Assembly: GCA_013285405.1 (NCBI GenBank)
Contig: CP053446.1
Location: forward strand, 2,403,001-2,467,000
Source of the DNA: Ignavibacteriota bacterium
GTDB lineage: Bacteria; Bacteroidota; Ignavibacteria; Ignavibacteriales; Ignavibacteriaceae
DNA: 64,000 nucleotides
Reading direction: 5' to 3'
Shown: positions 43,845-64,000 of the stretch, one piece after another
How the letters are laid out: each line of letters begins with the position of its first letter
How positions within the stretch are numbered: position 1 is the stretch's first letter
Made by a program: the position numbers and the translations under genes
The notes under the pieces: model-generated
What the model saw: the letters and a program-made list of their open reading frames with translations, nothing else
What the model was told of the DNA's origin: nothing
Database searches by the model: none

Positions 43845-45473
43845 TCAAAATCTATAAGTAAGATTAGCCAAAAATCTCCCTGATGATTGAACGTCTTCTC
43901 CCGAAGTGATGGATTTCCAAAAAATTCCTTCATAAGTGAAATTCAGCAGAACAGGTTTCAGAAAGTAAGTATTTAGATTAATTGAAACCGAGTTCTGTTT
44001 GAGATCATCAATTCCTGATCTGAATTTATAATTAGTGAATCTGTAACCAAGCATAACATCAAATCCAAAGGCAATCGGTCGATTCAAACTTGCAGTCCAG
44101 ATATCGCCTTCTGTATAGCTGCTGCTTAATTTATTAAAAGAAACTGTTACACTCGATTCAATTCCCGGAATTTGTGAATAGGAAATGCTTCCACCATAAT
44201 TGTTTGAGGGTTTCAAGTCACCTTTGCGGTGGCGGTAACCGTAATCGCCGCCGATATAAAAATTATTAAATGGTTTGAGAGTTAACCTTGTTCTGAAACC
44301 CTGTCTTGTTTCATTTTCAATTATACTGTCAACAAGCGTTTTGAAAGTTTCATAGTAGATGACATTCTTTCTTGCATCATAAGAAATCATCACTGCAAAG
44401 AAATCACTCGGTCGGATGTTTACTGAAGTGAAAAGACTTGTGAGTGAAAATTCCGTTTTACTTTCACCCATTTCTTTTTTATAAAGATCAATCTCAGTTG
44501 ATAGAAAAATTCTAGTGCTTTGAATTGCAGAATTTGAATGCTGATAATAGAGAAATCGTCTGTCAGTTTTAAAATCGTTTGTCTGCTCAAAGTAACCAAG
44601 AGTGTTTTGCATATCACCGTTTGCAAGTAAATCTGCTCTATTTATGTACGCACCATACTCAAACAATTTAAAGTTGTATCCCATATTGTTGAAATCTGGT
44701 CGTGAGCCAATAGCAGCACCAATTGACCATTCATTAATTCCTGATTCAAACTGAAGTCCGTCAATTGAACTGATGCTTGAAATTTTGTTATTGAGATGTC
44801 TTCCAAGCCAGATGAGTGTTCGTTCATTAAAATTGTATTTGACAGCAAGATCATAAACTCTTATCGCTTCTGAAAGATCAGAGGAGATTCTATTCCAGTC
44901 ATCTGCCCGATATGCAAAACTGATATATTGTGAATAAGAAAATCCGGAACTTCCAATTCGGTTTGCATTTAACTGAAAAGTATATCTCCATCGCTGATAA
45001 TCATAGCTTGCCTGATTATTCGTAAAGTTAGAATAAGATTGTACCGAAATCTTTCCAGAGAATGAGGAGACAGGTTCTAATGTAGTTTTAGTAATAATTT
45101 CCCCGGAAGTTACAGTTGGAATAACAACAGGAATAAGTGTTGTGGATATAACTGCTTCTGTTGTTGAATCTTTTATAATTTCAGGAATAATTGCATAAAG
45201 TAAATCATTGATCTCCAGCTTTCTGCTTATAATACTACTTCCGGCACACGAAGTTGAAGACTTATGATCTACTTTTATTGCAGGTAAAAAATCATTATTA
45301 TTTTTTAGAAAAAGTGTATCGCCGATTTCAATTCCATTAGTGCTGACGAACTTTACATAAATATTTTGTGATGATATATAACTGATTACTCCTTCAAGAA
45401 GCCTCGTATTCTTTGTCTGAGCTGACAATATATTAAACGATATGATTAATAAAATAACGAGCTGCGATTTCAT
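43845..45473 (-). CDS. Outer-membrane beta-barrel protein, candidate porin of a cytochrome conduit
   Basis: 542 residues with a signal peptide (ending NILSAQ). After an N-terminal segment of about 130 residues there are many alternating amphipathic strands (for example IGGDYGYRHRKGD, ESSVTVSFNKLSS, VMLGYRFTNYKF), and the chain ends in aromatic RF, the usual end of an outer-membrane barrel. Its ATG overlaps the stop of the 34-haem cytochrome gene. By analogy with porin-cytochrome complexes of metal-reducing bacteria it could hold a cytochrome across the outer membrane. No sequence identity with a named porin was established. Confidence 0.75.
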   Translation of the reverse strand: MKSQLVILLIISFNILSAQTKNTRLLEGVISYISSQNIYVKFVSTNGIEIGDTLFLKNNNDFLPAIKVDHKSSTSCAGSSIISRKLEINDLLYAIIPEIIKDSTTEAVISTTLIPVVIPTVTSGEIITKTTLEPVSSFSGKISVQSYSNFTNNQASYDYQRWRYTFQLNANRIGSSGFSYSQYISFAYRADDWNRISSDLSEAIRVYDLAVKYNFNERTLIWLGRHLNNKISSISSIDGLQFESGINEWSIGAAIGSRPDFNNMGYNFKLFEYGAYINRADLLANGDMQNTLGYFEQTNDFKTDRRFLYYQHSNSAIQSTRIFLSTEIDLYKKEMGESKTEFSLTSLFTSVNIRPSDFFAVMISYDARKNVIYYETFKTLVDSIIENETRQGFRTRLTLKPFNNFYIGGDYGYRHRKGDLKPSNNYGGSISYSQIPGIESSVTVSFNKLSSSYTEGDIWTASLNRPIAFGFDVMLGYRFTNYKFRSGIDDLKQNSVSINLNTYFLKPVLLNFTYEGIFWKSITSGEDVQSSGRFLANLTYRF

Positions 45474-48028: not shown

Positions 48029-49584
48029 TTAAAATCATCTAATTTGAATTTGATAAAAGTATTCCCATTTAATTCTACTTTTGGATGACATCCGGCACAT
48101 TCCACTTTGTGATGAGCACCTTCCAAACTAAAATTTGTTTTGTTATGATCAAATTTTTCGGGCGTCCAGTTTTCAAAAGTATGGCATCTGCTGCAATCAG
48201 AAATTCCTTCAACTTTAAATTGATCAAAGTGAATATCTTTATGGCAAGTCTCACATTCTTTATTTAACGAAGTAAAAATAATTGATGAAATTTCTTCCTC
48301 AATTTTTCGATGGCACGAGCCACAGGAAATATAGCTGTGTTTTCCTTGCAAAACGAAAGAGGTTCTGTTGTGATCAAATGATATAGTATTCCAGCTTACA
48401 GTTTGGTGACAAAAACTGCAATTATTTTCAGGAAGATATTCGACTTTTAACTCATTTTTATGAATGTTTTCATGACAGCTAACACACGTAATTCCTATAC
48501 CTTTAAAGTGCCAGATATTTTGCTGATAGTGGCAGCTTTCACAAGGCGTAGCTAAATGACCACCTGTAAGTTGAAATTGTGATTTGTTATGCTTCTCCAA
48601 TGTATATAATGAGGGTTTGAATCCATTTTCAGAATGGCAGTCAGCACAATTCTCTGTGACATTGTTAACGATGAATTGTCCTTTGTGATAATCTGTGTGG
48701 CAGTCAGTACAGAGAGCAAATTGCATTTTATAACCGGATGGTGCTTTGTGACAGTTGTTGCAATTAACAGATTTATGTTTTCCTGCCAATGGAAATTTTG
48801 TTTTACTGTGGTCAAATGAGCCAGTAAGCAATTGCCTGAAACTTGATGTTTGATGACAACCTGAACAATTCTGTCCAAAGCTTCCGTTATGAACATCTTT
48901 ATGACATGAGTTACAATTTTGAAAAGGAATTCCTTTAAATGTCTGAAATTCTTTTCCGTTTTTATTTTGAATTTTATGACAGCCACTGCACTCTACTTTC
49001 TGATGCGCACCGGTTAATTTAAACGCAGCCGAAGAGTGATCAAATTTTATTGCAGGTTTAAATGATTCTGAGTTATGACAACTGCTGCAATTTTCACCAA
49101 GGGTTTTTTGATGATAATCTTCGTGACAGGCAGAACAATCCGTACTCAAACCAAGATAAGTATTTTTTCTTTTTTTCAGATTTGAATCCGAAATGAAATC
49201 TGACTTGTGACATTCATTGCAATCAATATTGTCGTGTTTTCCTGTTAAGCTGAATCCTGTCTTCTCGTGATTAAATGATTCCGACTTGAAGTTTACTATT
49301 CTAAAATTTCTTCCGTGATGTTCGCTGTGGCAGTTTGAACAATTTTTACCTTTTACCCCGGAACTGGAATGGTAACCAGAACCTGAACTAATCCTCGTGT
49401 TTATTTCAGTATGACAATCAAGGCATTTTGAATTGTTAACCTGTTCACCAAGTTCATGACATTTTGTGCAATTACTTATTCCTTCAAGGTTAGCATGAAA
49501 ACTTGTTAGATCGCCGGGAGAGATCTGTGCGAACAGAGGAAAATAAAATCCGAGAATTAAGAAGTATGTAGAAAATCTGATAAT
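48004..49584 (-). CDS. 20-haem c-type cytochrome with probable AUU/AUC start
   Basis: The frame is open from the stop of the preceding gene (49600-49602) down to 48004 and contains 20 CXXCH motifs. Four of these lie upstream of the first conventional start codon (TTG at 49149). The upstream part also encodes a signal peptide (IIRFSTYFLILGFYFPLFAQ), so it is clearly translated. No ATG, GTG or TTG precedes it. ATT at 49584 or ATC at 49581 follows an AGGAAG ribosome site (49594-49589). Units have the FDH ... FxLTGxH ... CxxCH pattern of the 34-haem protein. The likely role is periplasmic electron transfer to the outer-membrane conduit. Confidence 0.85.
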   Translation of the reverse strand: MIRFSTYFLILGFYFPLFAQISPGDLTSFHANLEGISNCTKCHELGEQVNNSKCLDCHTEINTRISSGSGYHSSSGVKGKNCSNCHSEHHGRNFRIVNFKSESFNHEKTGFSLTGKHDNIDCNECHKSDFISDSNLKKRKNTYLGLSTDCSACHEDYHQKTLGENCSSCHNSESFKPAIKFDHSSAAFKLTGAHQKVECSGCHKIQNKNGKEFQTFKGIPFQNCNSCHKDVHNGSFGQNCSGCHQTSSFRQLLTGSFDHSKTKFPLAGKHKSVNCNNCHKAPSGYKMQFALCTDCHTDYHKGQFIVNNVTENCADCHSENGFKPSLYTLEKHNKSQFQLTGGHLATPCESCHYQQNIWHFKGIGITCVSCHENIHKNELKVEYLPENNCSFCHQTVSWNTISFDHNRTSFVLQGKHSYISCGSCHRKIEEEISSIIFTSLNKECETCHKDIHFDQFKVEGISDCSRCHTFENWTPEKFDHNKTNFSLEGAHHKVECAGCHPKVELNGNTFIKFKLDDFKCAACHKK

Positions 49585-50965: not shown

Positions 50966-51463
50966 TTACTTAATTCTTAATACAACTCCGGTAACAGCAT
51001 CAATTCTGATTTCCCACTCCAGCGATATAATAAATCTGTATTCCCATCTGTTATCACTTTCATCTTTTTCTAATTTCCAATCTATGATATCACCATTCTT
51101 TACATTTAAGGCAATAGTTTTTGCAGTTGAATAATTAATTAAATTCATTCCGGGTTGAACTTCATAATCAAACGAAGGAGACGTACCCTTCATTTCAACC
51201 AATGTGCCATTATCAACACGGTACTTTATTTTTAATTCACCGCCTGATGTAGTAATCATGTAAACTTCCCAGACTTTAACGCCGTCATGGATTGTCGATT
51301 CTGTTTTAGTTACTGTTCCGGAATTTGTCTGCTGTGCCTTTTGAACTGCCTGCGTCTTATTAATATTTGAATCGCTATCCGGATTATTAACATCTTCAGA
51401 ACATGCAATATTTAAAGTAAGTGAAAAAATAATTCCAACTGCGATAAAAATTTTTTGTAACAT
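50966..51463 (-). CDS. PepSY-like lipoprotein
   Basis: 165 residues. The lipoprotein signal ends in LTLNIAC (Cys about 21), and an Asn/Asp/Ser linker follows. Two beta-alpha-beta stretches (about 37-85 and 107-165) resemble PepSY domains: a helix like KTQAVQKAQQ followed by KVWEVYM, and WEYRFIISLEWEIRIDAVTGVVLRI. PepSY proteins may inhibit peptidases. The gene is preceded by the element shared with the nearby T9SS genes, so it probably belongs to the ECF regulon. Confidence 0.78.
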   Translation of the reverse strand: MLQKIFIAVGIIFSLTLNIACSEDVNNPDSDSNINKTQAVQKAQQTNSGTVTKTESTIHDGVKVWEVYMITTSGGELKIKYRVDNGTLVEMKGTSPSFDYEVQPGMNLINYSTAKTIALNVKNGDIIDWKLEKDESDNRWEYRFIISLEWEIRIDAVTGVVLRIK

Positions 51464-51501
51464 TTTAGACTCCTGTTAATTTATTGATAGTTGTGAATTA
51501 T

Positions 51502-51530
51502 ATAGTATTTGAATACTAACTTTGGTGACA
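51502..51530 (-). promoter_or_regulatory. Candidate ECF sigma promoter of the PepSY-like lipoprotein
   Basis: On the minus strand TGTCAC (51530-51525), 15 bp, then AATACTAT (51509-51502). The ATG follows 38 bp after the second box. Confidence 0.65.
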
Positions 51531-51611
51531 TCAATAAAGATTAGCGAATACAAATAGTTTAAATTAGCAGACGCGCCCAAATAATTCAGAGAGGGCATTA
51601 ATTTTTTGGGG

Positions 51612-54600
51612 CTATTTCATCATAATCATTTTTTTCGTCTCAATAAAACTTTGTCCTGAGCCTGTCGAAGGATTATCTGCAGTTAATTGATAAAAATATA
51701 CACCGCTTGAAAAACAGCTTCCATCAAATTTCAGATTGTAAATACCGGCTTGTTTGAATTCATTCACAAGAACTGCTATTTCAGTTCCCAATGCATCATA
51801 GATTTTTAATGAAATCTGACCAGCTTCAGGAATTGAGTAAGTAATCAAAGTAACAGGATTGAACGGATTCGGATAATTTTGTTCGAGGTTAAAACTTAAT
51901 GGAATTTCATTTTGCTCATCTACAGAGACTGCACCAATACTAAATTCTCCAATTGCTATATTACTTCCCGCATAAGCTGCATCAACTGCTCGAAGCTGCC
52001 ATTGATAATCTCCATTTTGTAATCCAGTCAATGACCATTCAACAACCGCACTGATATTTCCCGGCTCAGGCAAACGCGTAAGTACAATATTCGAAGGACT
52101 ATTTTCATTTCCAATTGGGACGTGTGTTCCATTTCGTATGATAACAAGATCATAAGTTATAGCTTGTGAGGGTGTATGGTCATCTGTTGCAGGCAGCCAC
52201 GATAAGAGAATTGAATTCTCAGAAAGAAGTGTACCTTCCAACCCTGTTGGTATTGTTGGAGCTTCATTTAATTCTAAAACATCATTGCGATAGACATGCA
52301 TTTGAGCTTCAACTAATCCATTTCCACCCGGTACGAAATATTGACCGGCAATGAAATAATCAAGATCAGCATCACCATCTAAATCAAACCATGAAAAAGT
52401 TCCACCACGATCACCGGCTGCTCTCGGTGCCGGAAGAGTATTAGCAGTATCAGCAATGAAAGTTCCACCATCATTAGTATAAATCCGTGCGCGACCTTCG
52501 ATTTGTGAACCAGAATTGTAATTGCCAGCTAATAAAATATCCATATCACCATCAGAATTATAATCAGCCCATGTTGCTGCAGTAATATCAAACCATCCTT
52601 CACAAGGTATGCAGTTTATAACTTCAAAGGGGATAAATGTTTCCGCTTCGTTTTTATAAATGCGAAGTGCCATGGCGGTATATGTGCTATCAATTTCTTT
52701 CAAGTTTCCAGCAACGAGTAAATCCAGATCACCATCACCATCATAATCTCCCCACTGAGATTCACCGTGTTCAATGCTTAAAGATCCGAGTATATTTTCG
52801 ACTGTGAAATTTCCGCCGCCGTCATTCCTGTACCGCTTAATGAATCCATCATCAGTTAACGGAGCAACATTTACTAAAAGTAAATCGAGATCCTGATCAC
52901 CATCGAAGTCAGCCCACGAACTCTGTGCATGGCTAGTTGGAGAAAATAAAGAATCAATTGCAGTAAAAAACCACCCGCCTCCGGTATTTGGTCCATCATT
53001 TCTCATAAGCACAGTCTTATAAGAAAAAGTTGAATTATCGAAAACTGATGGGATTAGAAGATCGGCATCACCATCATTATCATAATCTGCCCAGGTTATG
53101 GAACGAAGATCAAAATCTGCCTGACTGTTCTCTTCCCAATACCCGGGAAGGTTAATATCAGTTAACACGAGTGTTCCTTCATCATTACGATAGATGGATG
53201 TGCTGCCATCTGTTCCTACAACGAGATCAAGATCTGTATCACCATCAAAATCTCCCCATGCAAGATCAGATGCACCGGTTGTGAGTGAGCCGAGTGGAAT
53301 GTTGATATATGAAAAATCCCATCTTGTGGAATCTGCCTGACCATTATTTTGAATAAGGATTAATCTGTCTTCAACACTCACGAAGTATTCTACAAAATAA
53401 CCTAATACTGCAATATCAAGGTCACCATCATTATCGTAATCTGCAGGTGCAGTTGTTATTACCCAGAAATCTTCATCCTGTGATGTGACGAAGATTGAAT
53501 CCGGAGGTGTAACCTCAGTGAAATCACCAAAAGTACCGCCAGGCCCGGGTTGCACAACAACGAGTTTCCCGATAGTTCCAGTATCTCCATCATCATCGGT
53601 GACTGTCAAAGTAACGATATAAGTATTGGCTATATTAAAAGTATGCGTTGGATTTTGCTGAGTTGAACTTGTTCCATCACCAAAATTCCATTCCCAACTT
53701 ACAATGAATCCATCCGGGTCCGTACTAGTGTCAGTAAAATCAACTGTCAATCCATTTGTATTAAATTCAAAAGATGCTACTGGTGGTTGATTTACTGGTG
53801 GTGGTGGAGGACCTGTAAAATGTTCAATGTATCCTTGAGCACCAACTATCCATGCATCACCTCCGGGAACTGCAGTGATAGAACTGAAGATTCCAAAACC
53901 GTCTGAATCAATTTGTATAACAGACCAGCTCTGTCCTCCTGTCGCAGAATAATAAGCTACATTATTATTTGTGCTTATCCAGAGTTCATTTGCATTGAGT
54001 AAATGAATATCAGTAAAGTTATCGTTGGTGGATGGTGTGGGTAAAATTTCCCATGTTATTCCACCATCATTACTGCGAAAAGCCTGACCCCACCATCCAA
54101 CCGCATAACCAATACTTTCATTTAAAAATTCCATATCCTCAATTTGAACCTGTGTAGAAGGAAGTTCAGCCTGAATCCATGTAGCACCATTATCAGTACT
54201 TCTGTAATAAATTTCACCGACGTTAGCAGCCCAAATATTTGAACCTTCTACATCAACAGATTTATAAGCGCCTAAAAAATCAGTAACCGGAATCCAGGTT
54301 GTTCCTCCATCAGTAGTATGATACAAAGCTCCGGTGTTAAAACTCACACCAATTACCCAACCATCAAGTAATGAGGTAAAATGAATATCTTCTGCTGAGG
54401 ACATACTTGAAGGTTTATTAACGGTCGCTGTCCAATTCGTTCCTCCATCAGTGCTCATAAATACCTGACCTGTTTCATCAACAAGTACGGCTTCATTTGT
54501 TCCAACAGCCTGAACTGCTTTAAGATTATTTTGTGAAAATCTTTCATGTATTATCCAAGGTGTAAATCCATCACTCGAAAGAAGTGTCCCATTATCACCA

Positions 54601-55793
54601 ACAGCAAGAAGGTTTCCATTTGAAAACATCGCAACATCATTTAGTGATTTTCCTGTACCACTTGAAATCTGGAACCACGAAGCACCTGAGTCAGTTGTTT
54701 TAATAACGAAGCCAGCACCATAAGCAAAATAGCCAACCTGAGTATTAGAAAAATATGGAGCAGAGCTATTGAAGAAACTTGGCTGTTGACCTCTTGAAAC
54801 GAAAGTTTGTGTCCAATTCAATCCGGCATTAATAGATTGATGCATATTTCCAATTTCATCAGACGCAACAATAGTTTGAAAATCAACTACAGTAAATTCA
54901 TCAACACCTTCAGGAATTATTTCTCCGAGATCTGTCCAGCTTTGTCCTCCATCTGAAGATCTTAAAACTCTGTCATCATAATTCGGCCAACCACCAGTTC
55001 TTCCCCATGCAATAATTACGCTTGAGGAGATTGCTGTTAGTTTAGTTCTTCCATTGGTTGAGACTACCGGACTCCACGTTAGTCCACCATCATCTGAACG
55101 ATAAAAGGTTTCATTTATTATGCTAATTGCAATTGTATCTGAAAGAAAAACAGCCGCCTTTGCATCACCTGAAAGAACGGAGATGAATGTATTTCCACCA
55201 TCATTTGATCTGAAAACACCGGCTTCAGAAACACCAAGTCCAATCTGATCATTTGTAAAATCAAATGCGAAAATATTATTTGGAGATACAACCCAGTTAT
55301 TTCCTGCATCATAACTAACATACCGATCAAAATTTCCTGTTGCTAATCCGAAAGTTGTCGTATAAAATTTCATAAAATATGTTGAACCGAGAAAGGGAAG
55401 TTGTGTCCAGTTAGTTCCTCCGTCAGTTGTTCGATAATTATCGTTACCGAAAGCCCAGCCATTCTGACTATCGAGAAAAAATAATCCATTAAAGCCATCG
55501 AATAAACTGAAGGGAATGTTCCGCTGAACCCATGTGTTTCCACCATCATTCGATTCGAATAACGCACCACTATTGTCGAAAGAATTATCTTCGGTTGCGA
55601 TAAAAACACGGTCAGCAGTTGGTGCTCCAACTCCTCTTACATCCAGAAAAGTTGGAATCGGACTTTGCGTGTTCCATTGTGCTGTAACATTTAAGTTAAC
55701 TATGAATAATATTAACAATATGACAGGGGTTAAATATGATTTGACCCTGATATTTCGATCAGCAATTACATAAGGTTTAAATAGCATCCGCAT
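51612..55793 (-). CDS. Giant T9SS surface protein with YCF48/BNR, PKD and FG-GAP repeats
   Basis: 1393 residues. After an N-terminal signal (ending NLNVTAQW), about 650 residues are YCF48/BNR-like beta-propeller repeats (SxDGGxTWxx). A PKD domain follows (about 668-745; PPVASFEF ... WNFGDGTSS). Then come at least seven FG-GAP/VCBS calcium-type repeats (about 784-1150; DYDNDGDLDIAV and similar), an FN3-like domain (about 1180-1290), and a T9SS sorting domain ([14 protein letters not shown] ... KKMIMMK). Seven to eight extra residues (PSTGSGQS) near the end come from an inserted DNA repeat. The role is probably adhesion or surface binding. Confidence 0.9.
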   Translation of the reverse strand: MRMLFKPYVIADRNIRVKSYLTPVILLILFIVNLNVTAQWNTQSPIPTFLDVRGVGAPTADRVFIATEDNSFDNSGALFESNDGGNTWVQRNIPFSLFDGFNGLFFLDSQNGWAFGNDNYRTTDGGTNWTQLPFLGSTYFMKFYTTTFGLATGNFDRYVSYDAGNNWVVSPNNIFAFDFTNDQIGLGVSEAGVFRSNDGGNTFISVLSGDAKAAVFLSDTIAISIINETFYRSDDGGLTWSPVVSTNGRTKLTAISSSVIIAWGRTGGWPNYDDRVLRSSDGGQSWTDLGEIIPEGVDEFTVVDFQTIVASDEIGNMHQSINAGLNWTQTFVSRGQQPSFFNSSAPYFSNTQVGYFAYGAGFVIKTTDSGASWFQISSGTGKSLNDVAMFSNGNLLAVGDNGTLLSSDGFTPWIIHERFSQNNLKAVQAVGTNEAVLVDETGQVFMSTDGGTNWTATVNKPSSMSSAEDIHFTSLLDGWVIGVSFNTGALYHTTDGGTTWIPVTDFLGAYKSVDVEGSNIWAANVGEIYYRSTDNGATWIQAELPSTQVQIEDMEFLNESIGYAVGWWGQAFRSNDGGITWEILPTPSTNDNFTDIHLLNANELWISTNNNVAYYSATGGQSWSVIQIDSDGFGIFSSITAVPGGDAWIVGAQGYIEHFTGPPPPPVNQPPVASFEFNTNGLTVDFTDTSTDPDGFIVSWEWNFGDGTSSTQQNPTHTFNIANTYIVTLTVTDDDGDTGTIGKLVVVQPGPGGTFGDFTEVTPPDSIFVTSQDEDFWVITTAPADYDNDGDLDIAVLGYFVEYFVSVEDRLILIQNNGQADSTRWDFSYINIPLGSLTTGASDLAWGDFDGDTDLDLVVGTDGSTSIYRNDEGTLVLTDINLPGYWEENSQADFDLRSITWADYDNDGDADLLIPSVFDNSTFSYKTVLMRNDGPNTGGGWFFTAIDSLFSPTSHAQSSWADFDGDQDLDLLLVNVAPLTDDGFIKRYRNDGGGNFTVENILGSLSIEHGESQWGDYDGDGDLDLLVAGNLKEIDSTYTAMALRIYKNEAETFIPFEVINCIPCEGWFDITAATWADYNSDGDMDILLAGNYNSGSQIEGRARIYTNDGGTFIADTANTLPAPRAAGDRGGTFSWFDLDGDADLDYFIAGQYFVPGGNGLVEAQMHVYRNDVLELNEAPTIPTGLEGTLLSENSILLSWLPATDDHTPSQAITYDLVIIRNGTHVPIGNENSPSNIVLTRLPEPGNISAVVEWSLTGLQNGDYQWQLRAVDAAYAGSNIAIGEFSIGAVSVDEQNEIPLSFNLEQNYPNPFNPVTLITYSIPEAGQISLKIYDALGTEIAVLVNEFKQAGIYNLKFDGSCFSSGVYFYQLTADNPSTGSGQSFIETKKMIMMK
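51651..51671. repeat. Dispersed repeat arm inserted in a T9SS sorting domain
   Basis: The minus-strand sequence CCTTCGACAGGCTCAGGACAA encodes PSTGSGQ between ADN and SFIETKKM. The same place reads [10 protein letters not shown] in the protease at 41695. Confidence 0.6.
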
Positions 55794-55830
55794 AATAAAA
55801 TCCTTTTCGGTTAAACGTTATTTATTCATA

Positions 55831-55860
55831 ATAGTGTCTGAGCGATAAAAGATAGTGACA
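55831..55860 (-). promoter_or_regulatory. Candidate ECF sigma promoter of the giant T9SS protein
   Basis: On the minus strand TGTCAC (55860-55855), 16 bp, then GACACTAT (55838-55831). It lies 37 bp upstream of the ATG at 55793. Confidence 0.65.
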
Positions 55861-55959
55861 TTTCTCTTAAATATTACAAAAAAGATATACCATTAGCTAA
55901 AGATGGACAAAAAGTTCTGTCTGTAATATTTTTTAATGAATAATCATACTATCTCAAGA

Positions 55960-55993
55960 GAAAAAACCCTCCCAGAAAGGAACCTGAGAGGGT
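55960..55993 (-). terminator. Rho-independent terminator after the T9SS gene 56017-57240
   Basis: On the minus strand ACCCTCTCAG and CTGGGAGGGT pair across GTTCCTTT and are followed by TTTTTTC. Confidence 0.88.
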
Positions 55994-56016
55994 GAATCAT
56001 TAGATTGTTCGGTAAG

Positions 56017-57240
56017 TTATTTTGTAAGGATCATCTTCCGTGTGTATTTGAAATTGTTACTGCTTAACGTATAAAATAACACGCCGCTGTTTAATCCATC
56101 AGCATTGAATTCGATACTATATGAACCAGCTGATAAAACCTGATTTACGAGAGTTTTGACTTCAACACCTAAAGTGTTGTAAACCTTTAGCGATATGAAT
56201 CCTGATGCGGGAATTGAAAACCAAATTGTTGTAGAAGGATTAAACGGATTCGGATAATTTTGTTCGAGGTTATAATTAAATGCAATATTATTTTCCAAAT
56301 CGATTCCGCTTGGTGATGAGTAATTCGTAATTATTACTCCAAATTCTCCGACACCCCATACATTAATTCCATCGAAAGAATGAATAGAATTTAAATCCTG
56401 TATGGTTTGTGATTGTTCCGCAATCCAATTTAATCCTGCGTTTGTTGTTGAGTATAAATTTCCTGCATCTCCTACAACCCAACCAATGGACTGATTCACA
56501 AAATGTAACCCATCCAACTCATGTTGAATTCCTGAAGAACGTGAAACCCAGTTAGTACCACCATCACTTGTGAACATAAAAAATGAATTACTACCACAGG
56601 CAAATCCCGTTGACGCATCAATGAATTGAATATCTTTTATATCATCGCTTGCCGGATTGCTCATCGAAGCGAAAGTTGTCCCTCCATTACTTGAAAATAA
56701 CATTAGACCATTTCTTGCACCGATCCAAACATTCTGATCAATTGCTGCGACACTATGAAGTTCTTGAACAGTACTGGTATTTAAACTTATCCAGGTGTTT
56801 CCATTATCAGTAGATTTGAAAGCTACACCTGTATCACCGACAGCAAAATAAGTTGAATTGCCTGCATAAGCTGCTCCATTGAAATCCGTGTTTGTGCCGC
56901 TGTTTTTTAAAATCCAATTTGTGCCGCCATTTGTAGTGGTGAAAATTTCTCCGTCATCGCCAACAACAATTCCATTGCTTGCATCTTTAAATACAATTTG
57001 ATTCAGATCTGAACTTGTTAATGTAGAAACGGTCCAGGTATCTCCGGAATTTGTGGTATGAAGCATAACTCCGTCATCTCCGCATATCCAGCCTTCAGTG
57101 GAAGTGATCATGTGAATTCCTTCCAATTCTTTGATTGTATTTGAATTTTGAATGTGCCAGTTTTGTGCGAAGGAAAGTGAAGTGATCAAAATGGAAATAA
57201 TAATTGCAGTTGATACTCTGGTAAAAATATAGTTATTCAT
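56017..57240 (-). CDS. T9SS surface protein with YCF48/BNR-like repeats
   Basis: 407 residues. A signal peptide ends in TSLSFAQ. Six or seven YCF48/BNR-like repeats (TxDGGTNWxxxxSGxxxxLxxVxFxxxxxGxxVGxxG) form a probable beta propeller (about 25-310). The T9SS sorting domain is at the end ([14 protein letters not shown] ... RKMILTK). It is a shorter relative of the 1393-residue protein next door. The ligand is unknown. Confidence 0.9.
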   Translation of the reverse strand: MNNYIFTRVSTAIIISILITSLSFAQNWHIQNSNTIKELEGIHMITSTEGWICGDDGVMLHTTNSGDTWTVSTLTSSDLNQIVFKDASNGIVVGDDGEIFTTTNGGTNWILKNSGTNTDFNGAAYAGNSTYFAVGDTGVAFKSTDNGNTWISLNTSTVQELHSVAAIDQNVWIGARNGLMLFSSNGGTTFASMSNPASDDIKDIQFIDASTGFACGSNSFFMFTSDGGTNWVSRSSGIQHELDGLHFVNQSIGWVVGDAGNLYSTTNAGLNWIAEQSQTIQDLNSIHSFDGINVWGVGEFGVIITNYSSPSGIDLENNIAFNYNLEQNYPNPFNPSTTIWFSIPASGFISLKVYNTLGVEVKTLVNQVLSAGSYSIEFNADGLNSGVLFYTLSSNNFKYTRKMILTK

Positions 57241-57342
57241 TTTATACTCCTTATTATTTATTGAAATTTGCTGTTGATTAGAAAACTTAATGTTTATTTA
57301 CTTTTTTTTGTTTAATTCTATTTATTTTATGCTGACATAGAT

Positions 57343-57371
57343 ATAGTGTCTATTAACTCACAAAGGTGACA
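57343..57371 (-). promoter_or_regulatory. Candidate ECF sigma promoter of the YCF48-like T9SS gene
   Basis: On the minus strand TGTCAC (57371-57366), 15 bp, then GACACTAT (57350-57343). The leader to the ATG is about 100 nt. An overlapping inverted repeat GGTGAC ... GTCACC spans 57365-57390. Confidence 0.65.
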
Positions 57372-57448
57372 TAGAATTATCAGCGTCACCGAGAGATTTA
57401 TAGGGATTATTGAGTGAGTTTTAAATAATGAAGAATTTAATTGAAGTA

Positions 57449-58357
57449 TTAATTTATCTGACTCGGGAAATATGGTTCTATATGGACGAGAACATTAGTA
57501 ATGTTTGAATATTCTTTCATCAATTCATCTTTCACTTTATGTGCAATTTCATGTCCTTTATAGACAGGAAGGTTTGCATCAACTAATACATGAATATCAA
57601 CGAAGTAATCAAAACCCATTTTGCGTACGTAGCATTTATCAATCCCCATAACATTCTCAACTTTTCCTGCTATATCTCTTACTTTTTGAATTATCTGAGT
57701 AGGAGGTGCTGTATCGAGAAGTTCAAAAAGTGCAGGCTTGAAAATCCTATACGCATTGAAAATTATTATCACTGACGCAAATAAAGCAGCGAAGTCGTCA
57801 GCAGATTCATATCCTTTTCCACCGATCAGAGCTATTGAAATTCCGATGAATGCTGCTGCTGAAGTTATTGCATCACTTCTATGATGCCATGCATCACTTT
57901 TAATTGCAACACTGTTTGCAGTTGTGCCAACTTTAATTACAAACCTGAACAATGTTTCTTTAGTTATGATTACAAATATGAGTACAATTAATGTAAAAGG
58001 TTCTGGTGCGTGATGAGGTGTAATGATTTCGTACACACTTTGAACGATAATTGCCATTGCAGCAATAAAAATTCCGAAGGCAACTGCAACTCCGGCAAAC
58101 GGTTCAGCTTTGCCGTGACCATAAGGATGATTTTCATCTGCGGGTTTTGCGGCAAAATATAATCCGGTTAAAATAATCGAAGAAGTGAAAATATCTGTGA
58201 GCGATTCAATACCGTCAGCAATAAGTGCGTATGAATTTCCAATAATTCCAGTAAAGATTTTTACTGCTGCGAGAACGAAGCTGGTAATTATTCCGGTTAA
58301 CGTGGTTTTCAATCCACGTTTAATAAAACTTTTGTTGTTGTCAGATTTTGTATTCAA
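57449..58357 (-). CDS. Cation diffusion facilitator (zinc/iron/manganese efflux)
   Basis: 302 residues with six hydrophobic helices. The metal-site residues of the CDF family lie in ADGIESLTD (helix 2) and SDAWHHRSD (helix 5), and a cytoplasmic C-terminal domain (about 210-300) ends the chain. HPYGHGKAEPFA is the family loop. By the D/D-H/D pattern it is FieF-like, but the ion cannot be fixed. Confidence 0.93.
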   Translation of the reverse strand: MNTKSDNNKSFIKRGLKTTLTGIITSFVLAAVKIFTGIIGNSYALIADGIESLTDIFTSSIILTGLYFAAKPADENHPYGHGKAEPFAGVAVAFGIFIAAMAIIVQSVYEIITPHHAPEPFTLIVLIFVIITKETLFRFVIKVGTTANSVAIKSDAWHHRSDAITSAAAFIGISIALIGGKGYESADDFAALFASVIIIFNAYRIFKPALFELLDTAPPTQIIQKVRDIAGKVENVMGIDKCYVRKMGFDYFVDIHVLVDANLPVYKGHEIAHKVKDELMKEYSNITNVLVHIEPYFPSQIN

Positions 58358-58457
58358 ATTTAAATGAAATGATTAATTACTCACTAATTTAATCAATCAA
58401 ATTCAAACAATCAGAAGTTTTTGAGATTTGAAAGTGAAAAGTAAATTTAATTTTGTG

Positions 58458-60047
58458 TTACTTCAGAAGCAGCATTTTTCGGCTTAGTCTGAAGTGATTT
58501 GCATCAAGAATCACAAAATAAATTCCTGATGATAATCCTTTTCCATCAAATACAACCGAATGTAAACCGGATGAAAGTTCATCATCAATCAGATTTGATA
58601 TAGTTTCGCCAAGAATATTAATCACTTTTAATCGGACATAAGAAGTGGATGGTAAATAAAATGAAATATTTGTTGTTGGATTAAATGGGTTCGGATAGTT
58701 CTGATGTAAAAAATAATCTTTAGAAATCTGAACATCATCAGATATGTCATCAATAATGAAAGTTATGTTTATTCCACCCGCTATCACATTCAATGAATCT
58801 ATTGTTACGATTTGACTAAACGCATTATCAAAACCGATTTTCTGTGCAACAATTTCGTATGTGCCGTAAGGAATATTATATATACTATAGTTTGCTTTTT
58901 CTTTTCCAAAATTATAAGAGTATAAAGCATTTGTGTTAATGTTTCGTGCGAGAAGAGTTATGCCTTCATAATTTGTCTGGTCGGAGAATGAAGTAAAATT
59001 GATCGAACCTTGAATAGTTCCATTTCCGTAAGATGAGTCCCGCACCAGTGAAATATTTTTATCTGTAACGCCACCATTAATATAAATTGAATCTGCATTC
59101 TGCCAGAAGACAGATGCAACTCCTTCATCATTGTAATATCCTGGTAAAAAATTATTTGTGTATGCCTGAAGGAAATAGTAGCTGCTCAATTCCGCATAAA
59201 CTGTATAACTTCCATCCGGTTTAACGAAACCGGCAAAAGCGTTCAATGTATCTGTAAGAAATTGGTTTCCTTTTGATAGCGGAGAAGGAACGTGTGTACC
59301 TGTTCTTACAATAATGATTCCTTTGTCAATGTTTATAGTGTTAGTTGAATCGAAAACCTGTCCGGAAACAGAATTTGTGAAGTTAGTAATCCGCTTCATA
59401 TTGAAATTGACGGTCAAAGTATCGTCATCATCAATTTCAATTAGTTCTGCAAAAAACGGATCATAAGTACTATCTTTAAACAAAACATAGTAACCGTTTC
59501 TTTCTGCGGCAATTGTGTAATCACCTTCAGGCAATTCTACTTGATAATTCCCAGATGCATCTGTTATAGCTTTGTCGATTAAATAAATTCCGTTATAGAA
59601 AAAGTAAATTGAAGTACTGTCAAGCGGTGTGAGGCTATCTCGGACAGTTCCAACAACAAAACCGAAATCATCCTCATAAAATTCTATTTCCACTTTAAGT
59701 TCTTCAACATTATTTATCCCATTATTATAAACAAACATTGTATCCGAAGTATCGCTATATGTTATATAATAAAAACCCACAAGAGTAACATTCATTTTGA
59801 CTGAGTCATTCGGAAGTATCGTGAAAGGGATCTGTTGATTTTCCTCAAAATCCAGAATATAATCGGAACGATTATAATCAATGCTGTCTATCGTAAGAAC
59901 TGCATTGCCTTTATTAATTAAATATGTATAATCTATTCTGCTGAATAGATCTTCAAATTCAATTTTGTTTGGCTTAATGTCCAATTCAGGCTGAGCTGCC
60001 AGAACAGCGGTAATAAAAATTACCAGCGATAATACTTTTTGCTTCAT
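58458..60047 (-). CDS. T9SS-secreted protein with carboxypeptidase-regulatory-like beta domains
   Basis: 529 residues. A signal peptide ends in TAVLAAQ. A first beta domain (about 18-125) precedes domains of the carboxypeptidase-regulatory/SpaA type (about 128-215: GTVRDSLTPLDSTSIYFFYNG ... YQVELPEGDYTIAAERNGY). The sorting domain is [14 protein letters not shown] ... RKMLLLK. It is transcribed divergently from the ECF sigma gene and has the shared promoter element directly upstream. Confidence 0.87.
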   Translation of the reverse strand: MKQKVLSLVIFITAVLAAQPELDIKPNKIEFEDLFSRIDYTYLINKGNAVLTIDSIDYNRSDYILDFEENQQIPFTILPNDSVKMNVTLVGFYYITYSDTSDTMFVYNNGINNVEELKVEIEFYEDDFGFVVGTVRDSLTPLDSTSIYFFYNGIYLIDKAITDASGNYQVELPEGDYTIAAERNGYYVLFKDSTYDPFFAELIEIDDDDTLTVNFNMKRITNFTNSVSGQVFDSTNTINIDKGIIIVRTGTHVPSPLSKGNQFLTDTLNAFAGFVKPDGSYTVYAELSSYYFLQAYTNNFLPGYYNDEGVASVFWQNADSIYINGGVTDKNISLVRDSSYGNGTIQGSINFTSFSDQTNYEGITLLARNINTNALYSYNFGKEKANYSIYNIPYGTYEIVAQKIGFDNAFSQIVTIDSLNVIAGGINITFIIDDISDDVQISKDYFLHQNYPNPFNPTTNISFYLPSTSYVRLKVINILGETISNLIDDELSSGLHSVVFDGKGLSSGIYFVILDANHFRLSRKMLLLK

Positions 60048-60068
60048 ATCCTAACGCGTTTTTTTAAC

Positions 60069-60097
60069 TTAGTATCAAGTTTAGTAATTTCGTGACA
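60069..60097 (-). promoter_or_regulatory. Candidate ECF sigma promoter of the gene 58458-60047
   Basis: On the minus strand TGTCAC (60097-60092) followed by GAAAT, then after 15 bp in total GATACTAA (60076-60069). The first 11 bases (TGTCACGAAAT) are identical to those at 60662-60672. Confidence 0.75.
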
Positions 60098-60129
60098 AAA
60101 ATAAAGAGAGAAACATCAATTATTTAAAT

Positions 60130-60660
60130 ATTTCTGGTCAGGAGTTAAATCTTCTTCTTCAGAGGGCAAAGGATGGCGATTCTCAATCCTTCTCGAAACT
60201 ATCCGCATACATTCGTCAGATTTCTTATTCTTATTATCTATCAAAATACAATCAGAAGAGAATAAAAAATCTTGATGATGTGGACGACCTTACGCAAAAT
60301 GTTTACCTTTCTTTTGCTGAGCAGTATCAAATCGTTAATGAACCTGAAAAATGGCTCAGAAGAGTGTTGTTCTTAAACTTTGTTAGATGGTATAAATCAG
60401 AAAAAAATAAAACTTTTTCCTCACTTAAAGAAAATCTGCCGGCACCGGATAAATTTTCAGAAGCTGCGGATATAATTGACGCTGAACGAGTCTTGAATCT
60501 GATGAATACACTAAGTGAAGAGAAACAGGAAATTGTCAAACTAAGATTTTGGGGTGATTTGAAATTCAATGAGATTGCTGAGAAATTGAACAAGAATGAA
60601 GCTGCTGTTAAGAAAATGTTTTACAGGACTTTACTTGAGTTGAAGGAAAAATTAGAATAA
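60130..60660 (+). CDS. ECF-type RNA polymerase sigma factor with probable AUU/AUC start
   Basis: About 176 residues if it starts at ATT 60130, or about 181 from ATC 60115. Region 2 begins LLLQRAKDGDSQSFSKL and continues through LDDVDDLTQNVYLSF, and region 4 is EEKQEIVKLRFWGDLKFNEIAEKLNKNEAAVKKMF. The first conventional start, GTG at 60280, would remove half of region 2, and the frame is open back to 60088 without ATG, GTG or TTG. It is followed by a membrane anti-sigma-like gene and a TPR-CHAT gene. It is the likely reader of the TGTCAC-N15-GAxACTA promoters nearby. Confidence 0.82.
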   Translation: MSGQELNLLLQRAKDGDSQSFSKLSAYIRQISYSYYLSKYNQKRIKNLDDVDDLTQNVYLSFAEQYQIVNEPEKWLRRVLFLNFVRWYKSEKNKTFSSLKENLPAPDKFSEAADIIDAERVLNLMNTLSEEKQEIVKLRFWGDLKFNEIAEKLNKNEAAVKKMFYRTLLELKEKLE

Positions 60661-60661
60661 A

Positions 60662-60690
60662 TGTCACGAAATCATTATCTGTGATACTAA
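60662..60690 (+). promoter_or_regulatory. Candidate ECF sigma promoter of the anti-sigma gene
   Basis: TGTCAC (60662-60667), 15 bp, then GATACTAA (60683-60690), 29 bp before the ATG at 60720. It lies between the sigma gene and the anti-sigma gene, as expected for autoregulation. Confidence 0.75.
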
Positions 60691-60719
60691 ATGGTTGATA
60701 ATCAATAAAATTGGTAGCA

Positions 60720-61691
60720 ATGGAAAATCAAGAAAAAATATTTGAACTGCTTGATAAGCAGAACTTGACAGAGAATGAACAGAAATTATTAATGCAATAT
60801 TCTGAGAAGGATGCTGAGATAAAGTCATTCATTAATATTTATAACAAACTCAAATCATCAATTTCATTGGGTGGACATATACCTGCGGAATTATTAGCAT
60901 CATATATTTTGTATGAAGAGGAGAATGATTCAGGTGATAAAATAATGCAAATTCTCAGTGGAAGAATAAAAACTCACCTTGCAGATTGTGCAGAATGTAA
61001 AAATGTTTTTAACGATTTAAGAACCGAATACTCGCTGATAGATGAACATGTAAGTAAATCTGTAACTCAAAAATCAGAATCCGGCAAAAGTATTTCTATC
61101 AATAATTCTATATTTAAGCGAACAAGCTTCTTCAAATATGCGGTTGCTGCAATGGTAGTGATTGTTGTTTCCTACATTGGGTTGTTCTTTGTTTCATCTT
61201 CAATAACACCTGATTACAAAAGAAATATTTTTAAAAACGAAAGTGAAAATTCCTATTTAACACGTGGAAGAACTTCACCATTATTTCAACAGGGTTTAAA
61301 TGCTATTGACGAGAAAAATTATTCTAAAGCTATTGAGTTTTTATCACAGGATATTGATGAGCATAAAAATGAAAAATCAATTTTTTATTCTCACTACGTT
61401 TTGGGGCTCACTTATCTCCGTGCCTCTGAGTCTGATTTCCTGGGCTTGTTCAATTCTTATAACATTGAAAATGTTAATTTAGCAATTACCAACTTTAATG
61501 AATCAATTGATAAAAATAATTCAGGAAGCTATGAAAGTCTGAAACTGAATACTTACTACTATCTCGGGCGAGCATATCTCTTAATTGATGACAGCAATTC
61601 TGCAATTTCAAACTTCCAAAAAGTTATCGAAGGTAATGGTAGTTTTGCACCAGAAGCAGCAAAATTAATTTCTGAGCTGGAGAAGAATTGA
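60720..61691 (+). CDS. Zinc-finger anti-sigma-like membrane protein with TPR domain
   Basis: About 323 residues. The ATG at 60720 is preferred to the TTG at 60711. The cytoplasmic N-terminal part has a ZAS-type zinc motif HLADCAECKNVF (HX3CX2C, near 85-96), then one membrane helix (about 139-160), then a periplasmic TPR region (about 190-320; SPLFQQGLNAIDEKNYSKAIEFL and YYLGRAYLLIDDSNSAISNFQKVI). Anti-sigma factors of this type bind their sigma until a signal arrives. The next gene starts 3 bp later. Confidence 0.85.
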   Translation: MENQEKIFELLDKQNLTENEQKLLMQYSEKDAEIKSFINIYNKLKSSISLGGHIPAELLASYILYEEENDSGDKIMQILSGRIKTHLADCAECKNVFNDLRTEYSLIDEHVSKSVTQKSESGKSISINNSIFKRTSFFKYAVAAMVVIVVSYIGLFFVSSSITPDYKRNIFKNESENSYLTRGRTSPLFQQGLNAIDEKNYSKAIEFLSQDIDEHKNEKSIFYSHYVLGLTYLRASESDFLGLFNSYNIENVNLAITNFNESIDKNNSGSYESLKLNTYYYLGRAYLLIDDSNSAISNFQKVIEGNGSFAPEAAKLISELEKN

Positions 61692-61694
61692 TCG

Positions 61695-64000
61695 ATGTTT
61701 CATTTAAAAAATTTTATTGTCTTTGCTATTTTTTTGATTTTAGCTTTGCTGATATTCGGAGGCAAGTTAAATTTTAATCAATCCGGCTCATCCTCAGAAT
61801 CAGATAATCCTAAAAAATTTTCAAATACAGATTCGCTTGCAGAAACCTCAAAAAAATTCAAATACTATCTTGATCTTATATTAAACAATCCAATTGATAA
61901 ACAAAAAATTCAATTAAGTTTAAAATCTTTTCAACCTTCATTTGAAAGAGAATACCTCTCAGCATTGTTGGAAAAAAGGTCAGGTCGATATGAGGAATCT
62001 TTCAAAGGATTTTTTTCATTGCTTGATAAGCTTCCAACTTATCCGGGGTTTTATGAGGAGTTAGCTTTATCGGCTAAAATTTCTGATAATCTGAATAAAA
62101 TAACAGACTGGCTGAAGGTTCGTAAAGATGGTTCTGGTAATCCATTCTATTTATATCTTGAAGCAATGGTTGAATTTCAAAATGGGCAAACAACAGTTGG
62201 AGTTGAGAAATTAGAATTATTAGTTAACCAGAATTTTATTTTTAAGGAACTTTTTGTTCAACTTGCAAATGCATATAGAATTCTCGGTAACTATGATAAA
62301 TCTTTCATCTGTCTTCTCAAAGCAGAAAAATTATGTTCGGACAATGATCCGTTTCTTGCCAAAATTATTAATCTGAAAGGAACAATATATTATCTGTCGG
62401 GTGAATATGATAAAGCAAATGCCGAATATAAATCAGCGTTGAAAAAATCTCAATCAACCGGGAATAAAATTGAAGAAATAAAATCTGTTGCTAACCTTGC
62501 AATTATTAAAGATCTTTATGGAGAAATCTATGAAGCAAGAGATGACTTTCATCAGGCTATTGAGATGGCAAAAATTATTGAGAATACAGAATTGCTGGCT
62601 TTTCTTCATTCTGAATTGGGCGTTTCTTATACATATACGAATAATCTTATTGATTCACGCAAGAATTATGAAACAAGTTTGGAACTCTATGAACTAATAA
62701 AAAACACAGAGAGATTATCTTATCTTTCAAGTAACATTGGCTCATTATACTTGCAGATTTCTAATTACAATTCAGCGTTCGAATACTTCAAAAAAGGTTT
62801 AACTCATGCCGGTGAAAATAAATTTGCTAAAATATTGAACCTCACCGGGCTTGGTGATGTTTACTCGAACGAATCTAATTATGCAAAAGCTCTGGAATAT
62901 TATTCGCTTGCAAAAGCTATTGCAGATTCAGTAAAGGATGTTTCTTCGATCCTCAAAATCGAACAGGGGATTGGTGCATTATACTTCAATGTCAACAAAC
63001 CTTATGAAGCTCTTGAAATTTTAATGAAAACCGAATCGAAAATATCATCTACAGAATCACCTTATGAACAGATTAAATTATTTTCAAAAATTGGTACCGT
63101 TCTCACTTCAGTTGATAGTTTAGCAGCGGCTGAAAACTACTTTGAAAAGGCACTTAGCCTCGCAGAATATGTTGATGATATTTATAGTTCATTATTGATT
63201 AAAACTGAACTTGCTCACAATTCATATCAGCAAAATAATTATGACAAAGCATTAAAACTTTTAAATCAAGTTCAAACTTTATCAAAAAAATATGATCTCA
63301 CACAACTTTTTGGAGTGCAGGAATTTTACAAAGGGAAAATTTTTTGTGCACAGCGAAAGAATAATTTATCAGACAGGAATCTTGAAAACGCTTTCAATAT
63401 TAGTGGTGAAGTGCATGATTACAATAATCAAATCGAAGCTGCATATTTACTGGGAAAGAATTTTGATGAAAGAACTGAATATTCAAAAGCAGAAACTTGG
63501 TACAATAATGCTATTAAAATAATTGAAAGAATTTCTTTATCGTTGACGCTTAATCAGGAAATTCAGATATCACATTTTTCAGGAGTGAATTCAGTGTATA
63601 ACTCACTTGCTGAATTGTATTTAAAGCAGGGAAAAGGCAAGGAAGCATTTTTTATAATTGATAAAGCAAGATCGCGGAATACAAAATCAAATCTTAACAG
63701 ATTAAAACTGCTTGCGCATCTTAAAAATGAAAGCGAGTACAAACAGTTGATTGATTTACAATGGATGATTACTTCCGGGTTGTATGATAAATCTGTGACA
63801 GACTCACTTGATCAGTTATTAGCTGACTTCACAAAAAATTTAAGTTCGCGTTCAAAAGAACTTGAAGCTTTACTTAACTCTGACTATTCATTAGATATTT
63901 CTGAATTGCAGAAAGGTTTTACAGATGATGATTATATAATATCAGTGTATGTCAGTGATGAGTTTTTAACCCTGTTCAGTTTAAGTTCAGCTAATTTCAA
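61695..64000 (+). CDS. TPR-CHAT protein (truncated by the window end)
   Basis: The frame is open from ATG 61695 to the last base, over 768 codons. A membrane helix or signal anchor lies at about 6-23 (FIVFAIFLILALLIFGG). At least ten TPR units follow (about 110-590; for example ISNYNSAFEYFKKGLTHAG and ESNYAKALEYYSLAKAIAD). The region DKARSRNTKSNLNRLKLL and the final DDYIISVYVSDEFLTLFSLS look like the beginning of a CHAT domain, a caspase-like peptidase family. The catalytic His and Cys would lie beyond the window. It is co-transcribed with the sigma/anti-sigma pair. Confidence 0.82.
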   Translation, partial: MFHLKNFIVFAIFLILALLIFGGKLNFNQSGSSSESDNPKKFSNTDSLAETSKKFKYYLDLILNNPIDKQKIQLSLKSFQPSFEREYLSALLEKRSGRYEESFKGFFSLLDKLPTYPGFYEELALSAKISDNLNKITDWLKVRKDGSGNPFYLYLEAMVEFQNGQTTVGVEKLELLVNQNFIFKELFVQLANAYRILGNYDKSFICLLKAEKLCSDNDPFLAKIINLKGTIYYLSGEYDKANAEYKSALKKSQSTGNKIEEIKSVANLAIIKDLYGEIYEARDDFHQAIEMAKIIENTELLAFLHSELGVSYTYTNNLIDSRKNYETSLELYELIKNTERLSYLSSNIGSLYLQISNYNSAFEYFKKGLTHAGENKFAKILNLTGLGDVYSNESNYAKALEYYSLAKAIADSVKDVSSILKIEQGIGALYFNVNKPYEALEILMKTESKISSTESPYEQIKLFSKIGTVLTSVDSLAAAENYFEKALSLAEYVDDIYSSLLIKTELAHNSYQQNNYDKALKLLNQVQTLSKKYDLTQLFGVQEFYKGKIFCAQRKNNLSDRNLENAFNISGEVHDYNNQIEAAYLLGKNFDERTEYSKAETWYNNAIKIIERISLSLTLNQEIQISHFSGVNSVYNSLAELYLKQGKGKEAFFIIDKARSRNTKSNLNRLKLLAHLKNESEYKQLIDLQWMITSGLYDKSVTDSLDQLLADFTKNLSSRSKELEALLNSDYSLDISELQKGFTDDDYIISVYVSDEFLTLFSLSSANF

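Follow-up and report, generated by a model that had tools for sequence, protein, structure and literature searches.

The question raised by this locus is whether a promoter-like element that recurs around an extracytoplasmic function (ECF) sigma factor gene is read by that sigma factor, and which pathway it would serve. The locus lies in a stretch of 64,000 nucleotides from an Ignavibacteriota bacterium (the window; contig CP053446.1, positions 2,403,001 to 2,467,000). It carries the sigma factor gene, a putative anti-sigma factor gene, a gene for a TPR-CHAT protease-like protein, and genes for proteins sorted by the type IX secretion system (T9SS). Comparison with related genomes supports well the reading of the motif as the promoter of this sigma factor. 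We consider it likely that the locus encodes a membrane signalling unit of Ignavibacteriales in which the CHAT protein would cut the anti-sigma factor and the freed sigma factor would start transcription of envelope genes and of its own inhibitor. The promoter link is the well-supported part of this reading, and the cleavage step is inferred.

Promoter motif around the sigma factor gene

The sequence-only reading of the window had placed matching promoter elements upstream of five genes, and all five were recovered with the same coordinates and strands. The spacer, in the notation of that reading, is 15 bases in four sites and 16 bases in one. Two copies share TGTCACGAAAT exactly. Four of the five sites end 20-40 bp from the start codon, as had been claimed. 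The claimed targets were also identified by Pfam and TIGR scans and by alignment. They are a PepSY lipoprotein, three T9SS-sorted proteins, and the anti-sigma factor encoded directly after the ECF sigma factor.

Four of these putative sigma-dependent promoters are on the minus strand. They lie at 51502..51530 (38 bp 5' of the ATG of the PepSY lipoprotein gene), 55831..55860 (37 bp 5' of the ATG of the gene for a 1393-aa T9SS protein, with the additional spacer base), 57343..57371 (102 bp 5' of the ATG of the gene for a 407-aa T9SS protein), and 60069..60097 (21 bp 5' of the ATG of the T9SS-sorted gene that is divergent from the sigma factor gene). The fifth, TGTCACGAAATCATTATCTGTGATACTAA, lies on the plus strand at 60662..60690, 29 bp 5' of the ATG that begins the anti-sigma/CHAT operon.

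The genome (3.86 Mb, single contig) was searched with the pattern TGTCACN{15,16}RAYACTAW, and the reversed pattern was used as the control. Such a search had been proposed by the sequence-only reading. The exact pattern has seven matches genome-wide, compared to one for the reversed control, and six of the seven fall in 12.3 kb around the sigma factor gene (genome positions 2451383-2463690). Allowing one mismatch added 17 further matches in the genome, which are scattered and equalled by the control and are thus at background level. The motif signal in this genome is therefore concentrated in a narrow region around the sigma factor gene.

The sixth local match (48383..48411, minus strand) is absent from the sequence-only reading and lies inside a multiheme cytochrome gene. 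It was not counted as a promoter, although the orthologous multiheme gene of the relative G002 has a match equally far from its end (L156:5592). It is probably a coding coincidence because TGTCAC, read in frame, encodes the Cys-His of a CXXCH heme site. Exact matches elsewhere in the genome (1172386, 2198598, and 3460015) were rejected; they lie within long open reading frames and their spacers are one base off.

Independent test of the motif in related genomes

An independent test was needed because the motif was first read off these same five sites. Sigma factor orthologs were placed in Ignavibacteriaceae, Melioribacteraceae, and related Ignavibacteria assemblies by a scan of named genomes; most of the genomes compared are metagenome assemblies. 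The flanks of 25 loci yielded the sharper motif TGTCAC-N17-YACTAW. Strict matches within 160 bases past the sigma factor stop codon were found in 13 of the 25 loci, compared to 0.0025 expected in shuffled regions. The motif is present directly after the sigma factor gene and 5' of the anti-sigma operon, the position of site 60662..60690, in 22 of the 25 loci, a count that uses the relaxed form of the motif and includes two loci in which the sigma factor frame overlaps the site. The divergent position, that of site 60069..60097, is occupied in 13/25 loci.

A matrix was trained on other genomes only, neither this genome (G000) nor its closest relative (G002) being included. In the 64-kb window, the five sites take its five highest scores (23.6 down to 16.9, the top score at 57343..57371), and the heme-gene site 48383-48411 comes sixth. 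Single shuffled windows can reach about 18 on this matrix; the joint ranking is decisive and the lower scores alone are not.

Co-occurrence was measured among 164 genomes of the order, 38 of which carry the sigma factor. With this genome excluded, genomes that carry the sigma factor have 0.738 motif copies per Mb and those that lack it have 0.117 per Mb, a 6.3-fold enrichment (binomial p ~1e-28, computed over genomes that are related and hence not independent). The reversed control is flat (0.229 versus 0.252 per Mb). At least two motif sites are found in 29/37 genomes with the sigma factor and in 9/126 without it, and some of these nine are incomplete assemblies. Sites away from the sigma factor locus were regarded as promoter-like when they lie within 150 bp 5' of an ATG and outside long genes. 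Such sites make up 31 of 60 in sigma-bearing genomes and 4 of 25 where the sigma factor is missing (p 0.002). The sequence-only reading had also suggested looking at genomes that lack the sigma factor gene, and the enrichment is indeed found only in sigma carriers. Its promoter reading is supported by this and by the motif kept 5' of the anti-sigma gene and of the divergent T9SS gene in relatives. ECF sigma factors recognise a specific -35/-10 promoter that is usually also present at their own locus, and for such recognition here the conserved sites at the locus and the co-occurrence among genomes are strong comparative evidence. A palindromic repressor operator was rejected as an explanation, the motif being asymmetric and its spacing promoter-like.

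The sigma factor

The ECF sigma factor gene lies at 60115..60660 on the plus strand and encodes 181 aa. TIGR02937 matches residues 44-180 with 50.5 bits (cut-off 42.9), and the Pfam model of region 4 is also above its cut-off (Sigma70_r4_2, E 1e-10); the Pfam model of region 2 gave no report in the Pfam scan. The protein has the size (about 180 aa) and the domains (regions 2 and 4 only) of an ECF sigma factor and ends after region 4. Orthologs were found in 38/164 genomes. By sequence comparison, the sigma factors with this module form one discrete family because distant relatives (at most 31% identity) have no such module beside them.

The start was placed at ATC 60115 by comparison of start codons among the loci because ATG, GTG, and TTG are absent 5' of the conserved N-terminus. 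In eight loci, none of these three codons is found 5' of the conserved region; each of the eight has ATA or ATC at one shared position of the alignment, preceded in most of them by a GAG-AAA-AAA-like stretch. TTG is the start in most other loci among the 25 compared. The non-canonical start codon suggests weak initiation. Open reading frame callers begin the gene at GTG 60280, inside region 2, and standard gene callers would truncate this sigma factor. The sigma factor appears to drive its inhibitor only and not its own gene because a plus-strand copy of the motif is absent 5' of the sigma factor gene in this genome.

A second sigma factor copy in G005 (G005b; L029, G005:C20:8022-8552) starts with ATG and has no anti-sigma gene, CHAT gene, or motif nearby. 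It is possibly an orphan paralog.

The anti-sigma factor and the TPR-CHAT protein

The putative anti-sigma factor gene lies at 60720..61691 on the plus strand. Its product has a zinc motif (H53...H86-x3-C90-x2-C93) in the N-terminal cytoplasmic domain, one transmembrane (TM) helix (141-159, called by hydropathy), and a periplasmic TPR domain that is supported by an AlphaFold model and its fold matches. The pattern H-x3-C-x2-C with an upstream His is that of zinc-containing anti-sigma (ZAS) proteins, and the zinc region matches RsiW weakly in sequence (E 0.12). The putative binding and inhibition of the cognate sigma factor are drawn from gene neighbourhood. H53, H86, C90, C93, and R184 are invariant in 18 aligned anti-sigma proteins. 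Arg184 lies immediately beyond the membrane in a TRGR-like linker and is, besides L11, the sole invariant residue beyond the zinc site and the TPR region. It is a candidate cut site in the periplasmic linker.

The sequence-only reading had described the module without the TPR-CHAT protease-like gene that follows the anti-sigma gene (61695..64000, plus strand, continuing past the window), and its module was thus incomplete. The CHAT model PF12770 matches two halves of the protein (E 2e-23 and 4e-23). In 22 of 24 informative loci, the sigma factor gene is followed by the anti-sigma gene and then by the TPR-CHAT gene, and anti-sigma and CHAT are two separate genes at every locus that holds both. 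Judged by comparison of these loci, the signalling unit is conserved across the order Ignavibacteriales.

The His-Cys dyad is present in every CHAT ortholog that reaches that far (15/15 complete orthologs from the named-genome scan, plus the set of genomes with G handles), and its surroundings are also invariant in all complete orthologs. The modelled CHAT half matches the folds of Csx29 (Z 28.9), separase (27.7), DdvA (22.0), and gingipain R (19.9), the last being Arg-specific. The PF12770 domain, the caspase-like fold, and the dyad are those of clan CD. Profiles of the CHAT and anti-sigma proteins gave no strong sequence match to solved structures beyond generic TPR, and the CHAT domain was placed among these structures by fold comparison only. 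The shared fold seen in the model is no proof of protease activity. Many CHAT orthologs have a hydrophobic N-terminus and most have a C-terminal TM segment and basic tail; the protein is predicted to be periplasmic and membrane-anchored. The motif, the positions of its sites, its link to the sigma factor, the conservation of the module, the predicted topology, and the dyad all emerge from comparison among genomes.

The CHAT gene of this genome has a one-base frameshift relative to G002 near L009:4780-4835, just past the window end. The frameshift parts the catalytic region from the C-terminal portion, and complete orthologs in relatives are intact. It may be an assembly error.

In G002 (G002:C47:72093; L026), the motif is also present 5' of a gene near CHAT that encodes a 291-aa membrane protein, which is cytochrome-b-like by eye and has no Pfam match. 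No exact motif site was found at the corresponding gene in this genome.

Target genes and extent of the regulon

The four target genes other than the anti-sigma gene are on the minus strand. The PepSY lipoprotein gene (50966..51463) matches PF03413 (E 6.7e-16). The gene at 51612..55793 encodes the 1393-aa T9SS-sorted protein, which has BNR/YCF48, PKD, and FG-GAP repeats. The gene at 56017..57240 encodes the 407-aa T9SS-sorted beta-propeller protein of YCF48/BNR type (PF14870, E 6.5e-23; PF18962, E 2.8e-7). The divergent gene at 58458..60047 encodes a 529-aa T9SS-sorted protein with a carboxypeptidase-regulatory-like domain (PF13620, E 2e-10; PF18962, E 1.6e-7). This protein is the conserved fourth member of the module, and genes for its homologs are divergent from the sigma factor gene or directly after the CHAT gene in most loci.

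Promoter-like exact sites in this genome are found only 5' of the cargo, PepSY, and anti-sigma genes, and the detectable regulon is confined to a neighbourhood of about 9 kb. The genome encodes at least 150 proteins with a T9SS tail, and the motif is present at only three of them. Among the 31 distal promoter-like targets of relatives, only five have a T9SS tail. The other distal targets include heme-motif proteins, PepSY lipoproteins (with the motif in G002 and G023), DUF2231 membrane proteins (in six genomes; two were assigned by scan and the others by resemblance), a cupredoxin, and glycosyltransferases. DUF5666-T9SS proteins and a CHRD-T9SS protein are further targets in relatives. A B12-binding radical-SAM gene and a glycosyltransferase gene, each with its own copy of the motif, are found in two genomes (G020:C107:152258 and 157375; L065:6710 and 11703), and this pair is, by its recurrence, a conserved distal part of the putative regulon. 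These targets point to a small envelope set that is broader than T9SS cargo and is not T9SS cargo in general, because of the low share of tails among distal targets and the many tail proteins in the genome. A link to metal or redox stress, drawn from the heme, cupredoxin, and Met/His-rich targets, is only a guess.

Two adjacent, overlapping multiheme c-type cytochrome genes, followed by a gene for a 542-aa protein with no Pfam match, lie in the region 45473-49149 and 43845-45473 of the window. The region is possibly an extracellular electron transfer cluster.

Proposed mechanism and alternative explanations

An envelope signal would activate the membrane-anchored periplasmic TPR-CHAT protein of the separase/caspase clan, which is encoded beside the anti-sigma gene. 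The CHAT protein would then cut the linker of the anti-sigma factor, perhaps at Arg184, and later proteases would release the cytoplasmic part of the anti-sigma factor and free the sigma factor. The freed sigma factor would initiate at TGTCAC-N17-YACTAW. Through site 60662-60690 it would raise its own inhibitor and the CHAT protein, giving negative feedback with a reset, and it would also activate the gene for the conserved T9SS-sorted surface protein along with a small group of envelope genes. Binding, cleavage, the signal, and the order of these events are inferred, and a precedent exists in that the inhibitor of an ECF sigma factor is cut by Csx29 (PMC10028731).

Several observations weigh against this mechanism. 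The loci G017 and G032 have sigma and anti-sigma genes without a neighbouring CHAT gene, the sigma factor paralog G005b has neither neighbour, and in L057 the anti-sigma factor has no HxxxCxxC pattern. The CHAT gene is frameshifted in this assembly. The invariance of Arg184 could be structural, another regulator might also use the motif, and the kinship of the genomes makes the enrichment p-values overstate independence.

The CHAT protein might instead act by contact, holding or releasing the anti-sigma factor as its binding partner or as a sensor, with the motif still serving as the promoter of the sigma factor. This is rather unlikely. In its favour, the chain of DdvA, a TM anti-sigma factor of Myxococcus, itself contains this fold, the anti-sigma factor and the CHAT protein both carry TPR domains suited to direct binding, and the frameshift in this genome would fit such a role; however, a dyad that is invariant together with its surroundings in all complete orthologs is not usual for a protein that only binds. 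The model of the sequence-only reading, a regulon dedicated to T9SS surface proteins, is improbable. In its favour, T9SS-sorted proteins account for three of the five targets here, and the divergent gene among them is kept in relatives; against it, only three of at least 150 tail proteins in this genome have the motif, and only 5/31 distal targets in relatives have the tail.

Recognition of the motif by another sigma factor or DNA-binding regulator, with this sigma factor gene as a mere neighbour, is very improbable. First-look counts gave further sigma-like candidates in these genomes, but the enrichment tracks this sigma factor over 164 genomes, and the motif is asymmetric, has fixed -35/-10 spacing, and lies directly 5' of the anti-sigma gene. 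A short AT-rich motif picked by eye could arise by chance, and the exact pattern is expected about once per genome, as in the control. The chance of this here is negligible, with six of seven matches in 12.3 kb and the motif kept in other genera, and the reading is refuted by the independent matrix, which puts the five sites first, and by the sigma-linked enrichment.

The proposed two-gene anti-sigma/CHAT relay is the larger finding and is a variant of ECF signalling. The locus offers a testable full ECF pathway, from promoter and inhibitor to putative protease and targets, in an order that has been little studied and is seen here mainly via metagenome assemblies. It makes specific predictions, namely a defined promoter, a single catalytic cysteine, and a single candidate site of cleavage. 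CHAT proteases that control sigma factors are known from one CRISPR branch, and the present locus suggests a wider envelope-signalling device outside CRISPR.

Comparison with known systems

Like the sigma factor of this system, ECF41 sigma factors have TGTCAC as their -35 element and a regulon of very few genes, whereas their -10 element is CGTC/TGTT and they have a C-terminal extension (PMC3426412). The -10 element here is YACTAW and the sigma factor ends after region 4, which places it outside ECF41. The PorA-PorXY-SigP system of Porphyromonas gingivalis also ties an ECF sigma factor to the T9SS and to a T9SS C-terminal domain (CTD) protein. However, SigP drives T9SS machinery genes via a two-component system, whereas a few cargo genes and an anti-sigma/CHAT pair are found here (PMC7712824, PMC4800418); the present sigma factor is thus not of the SigP type. 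RseA/DegS of E. coli and RsiW of B. subtilis are similar in that a protease responsive to envelope stress cuts an anti-sigma factor (PMC10028731). The present system differs from them in that a CHAT cysteine protease would make the first cut and the anti-sigma factor has a periplasmic TPR domain.

DdvS/DdvA of Myxococcus xanthus, as described in structure titles (PDB 8rot, 8rw5) and a review (PMC12288465), is an ECF sigma factor with a TM anti-sigma system that contains a CHAT-type fold. According to these sources, the fold lies inside the anti-sigma chain and DdvS controls an antiphage defence island, whereas anti-sigma and CHAT are separate genes here and the targets are envelope genes. The sigma-binding domain, the TM helix, and the CHAT-type fold are not in one polypeptide, and the present system is thus not of the DdvA type.

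Csx29/Csx30/CASP-sigma of the type III-E CRISPR system (Craspase) also has a TPR-CHAT protein beside an ECF sigma factor and its inhibitor; the fold and the His-Cys dyad are common to both systems, and several sigma factor sites lie in its own locus (PMC10028731). Target RNA activates Csx29 by way of Cas7-11, whereas the CHAT protein of the present system is predicted to be anchored in the membrane and is paired with a TM anti-sigma factor. No Cas protein was found among the neighbouring proteins scanned, and no search aimed at Cas7-11 was made. We tentatively propose, as a possibility somewhat short of even, that this non-CRISPR, membrane-tethered, separase-like TPR-CHAT protein is the first periplasmic protease to act on the TM anti-sigma factor and would cut it at the invariant Arg of the TRGR linker, perhaps with feedback from the co-regulated T9SS surface protein, which would make the module a two-gene counterpart of DdvA and of the Csx29-Csx30-sigma pathway.

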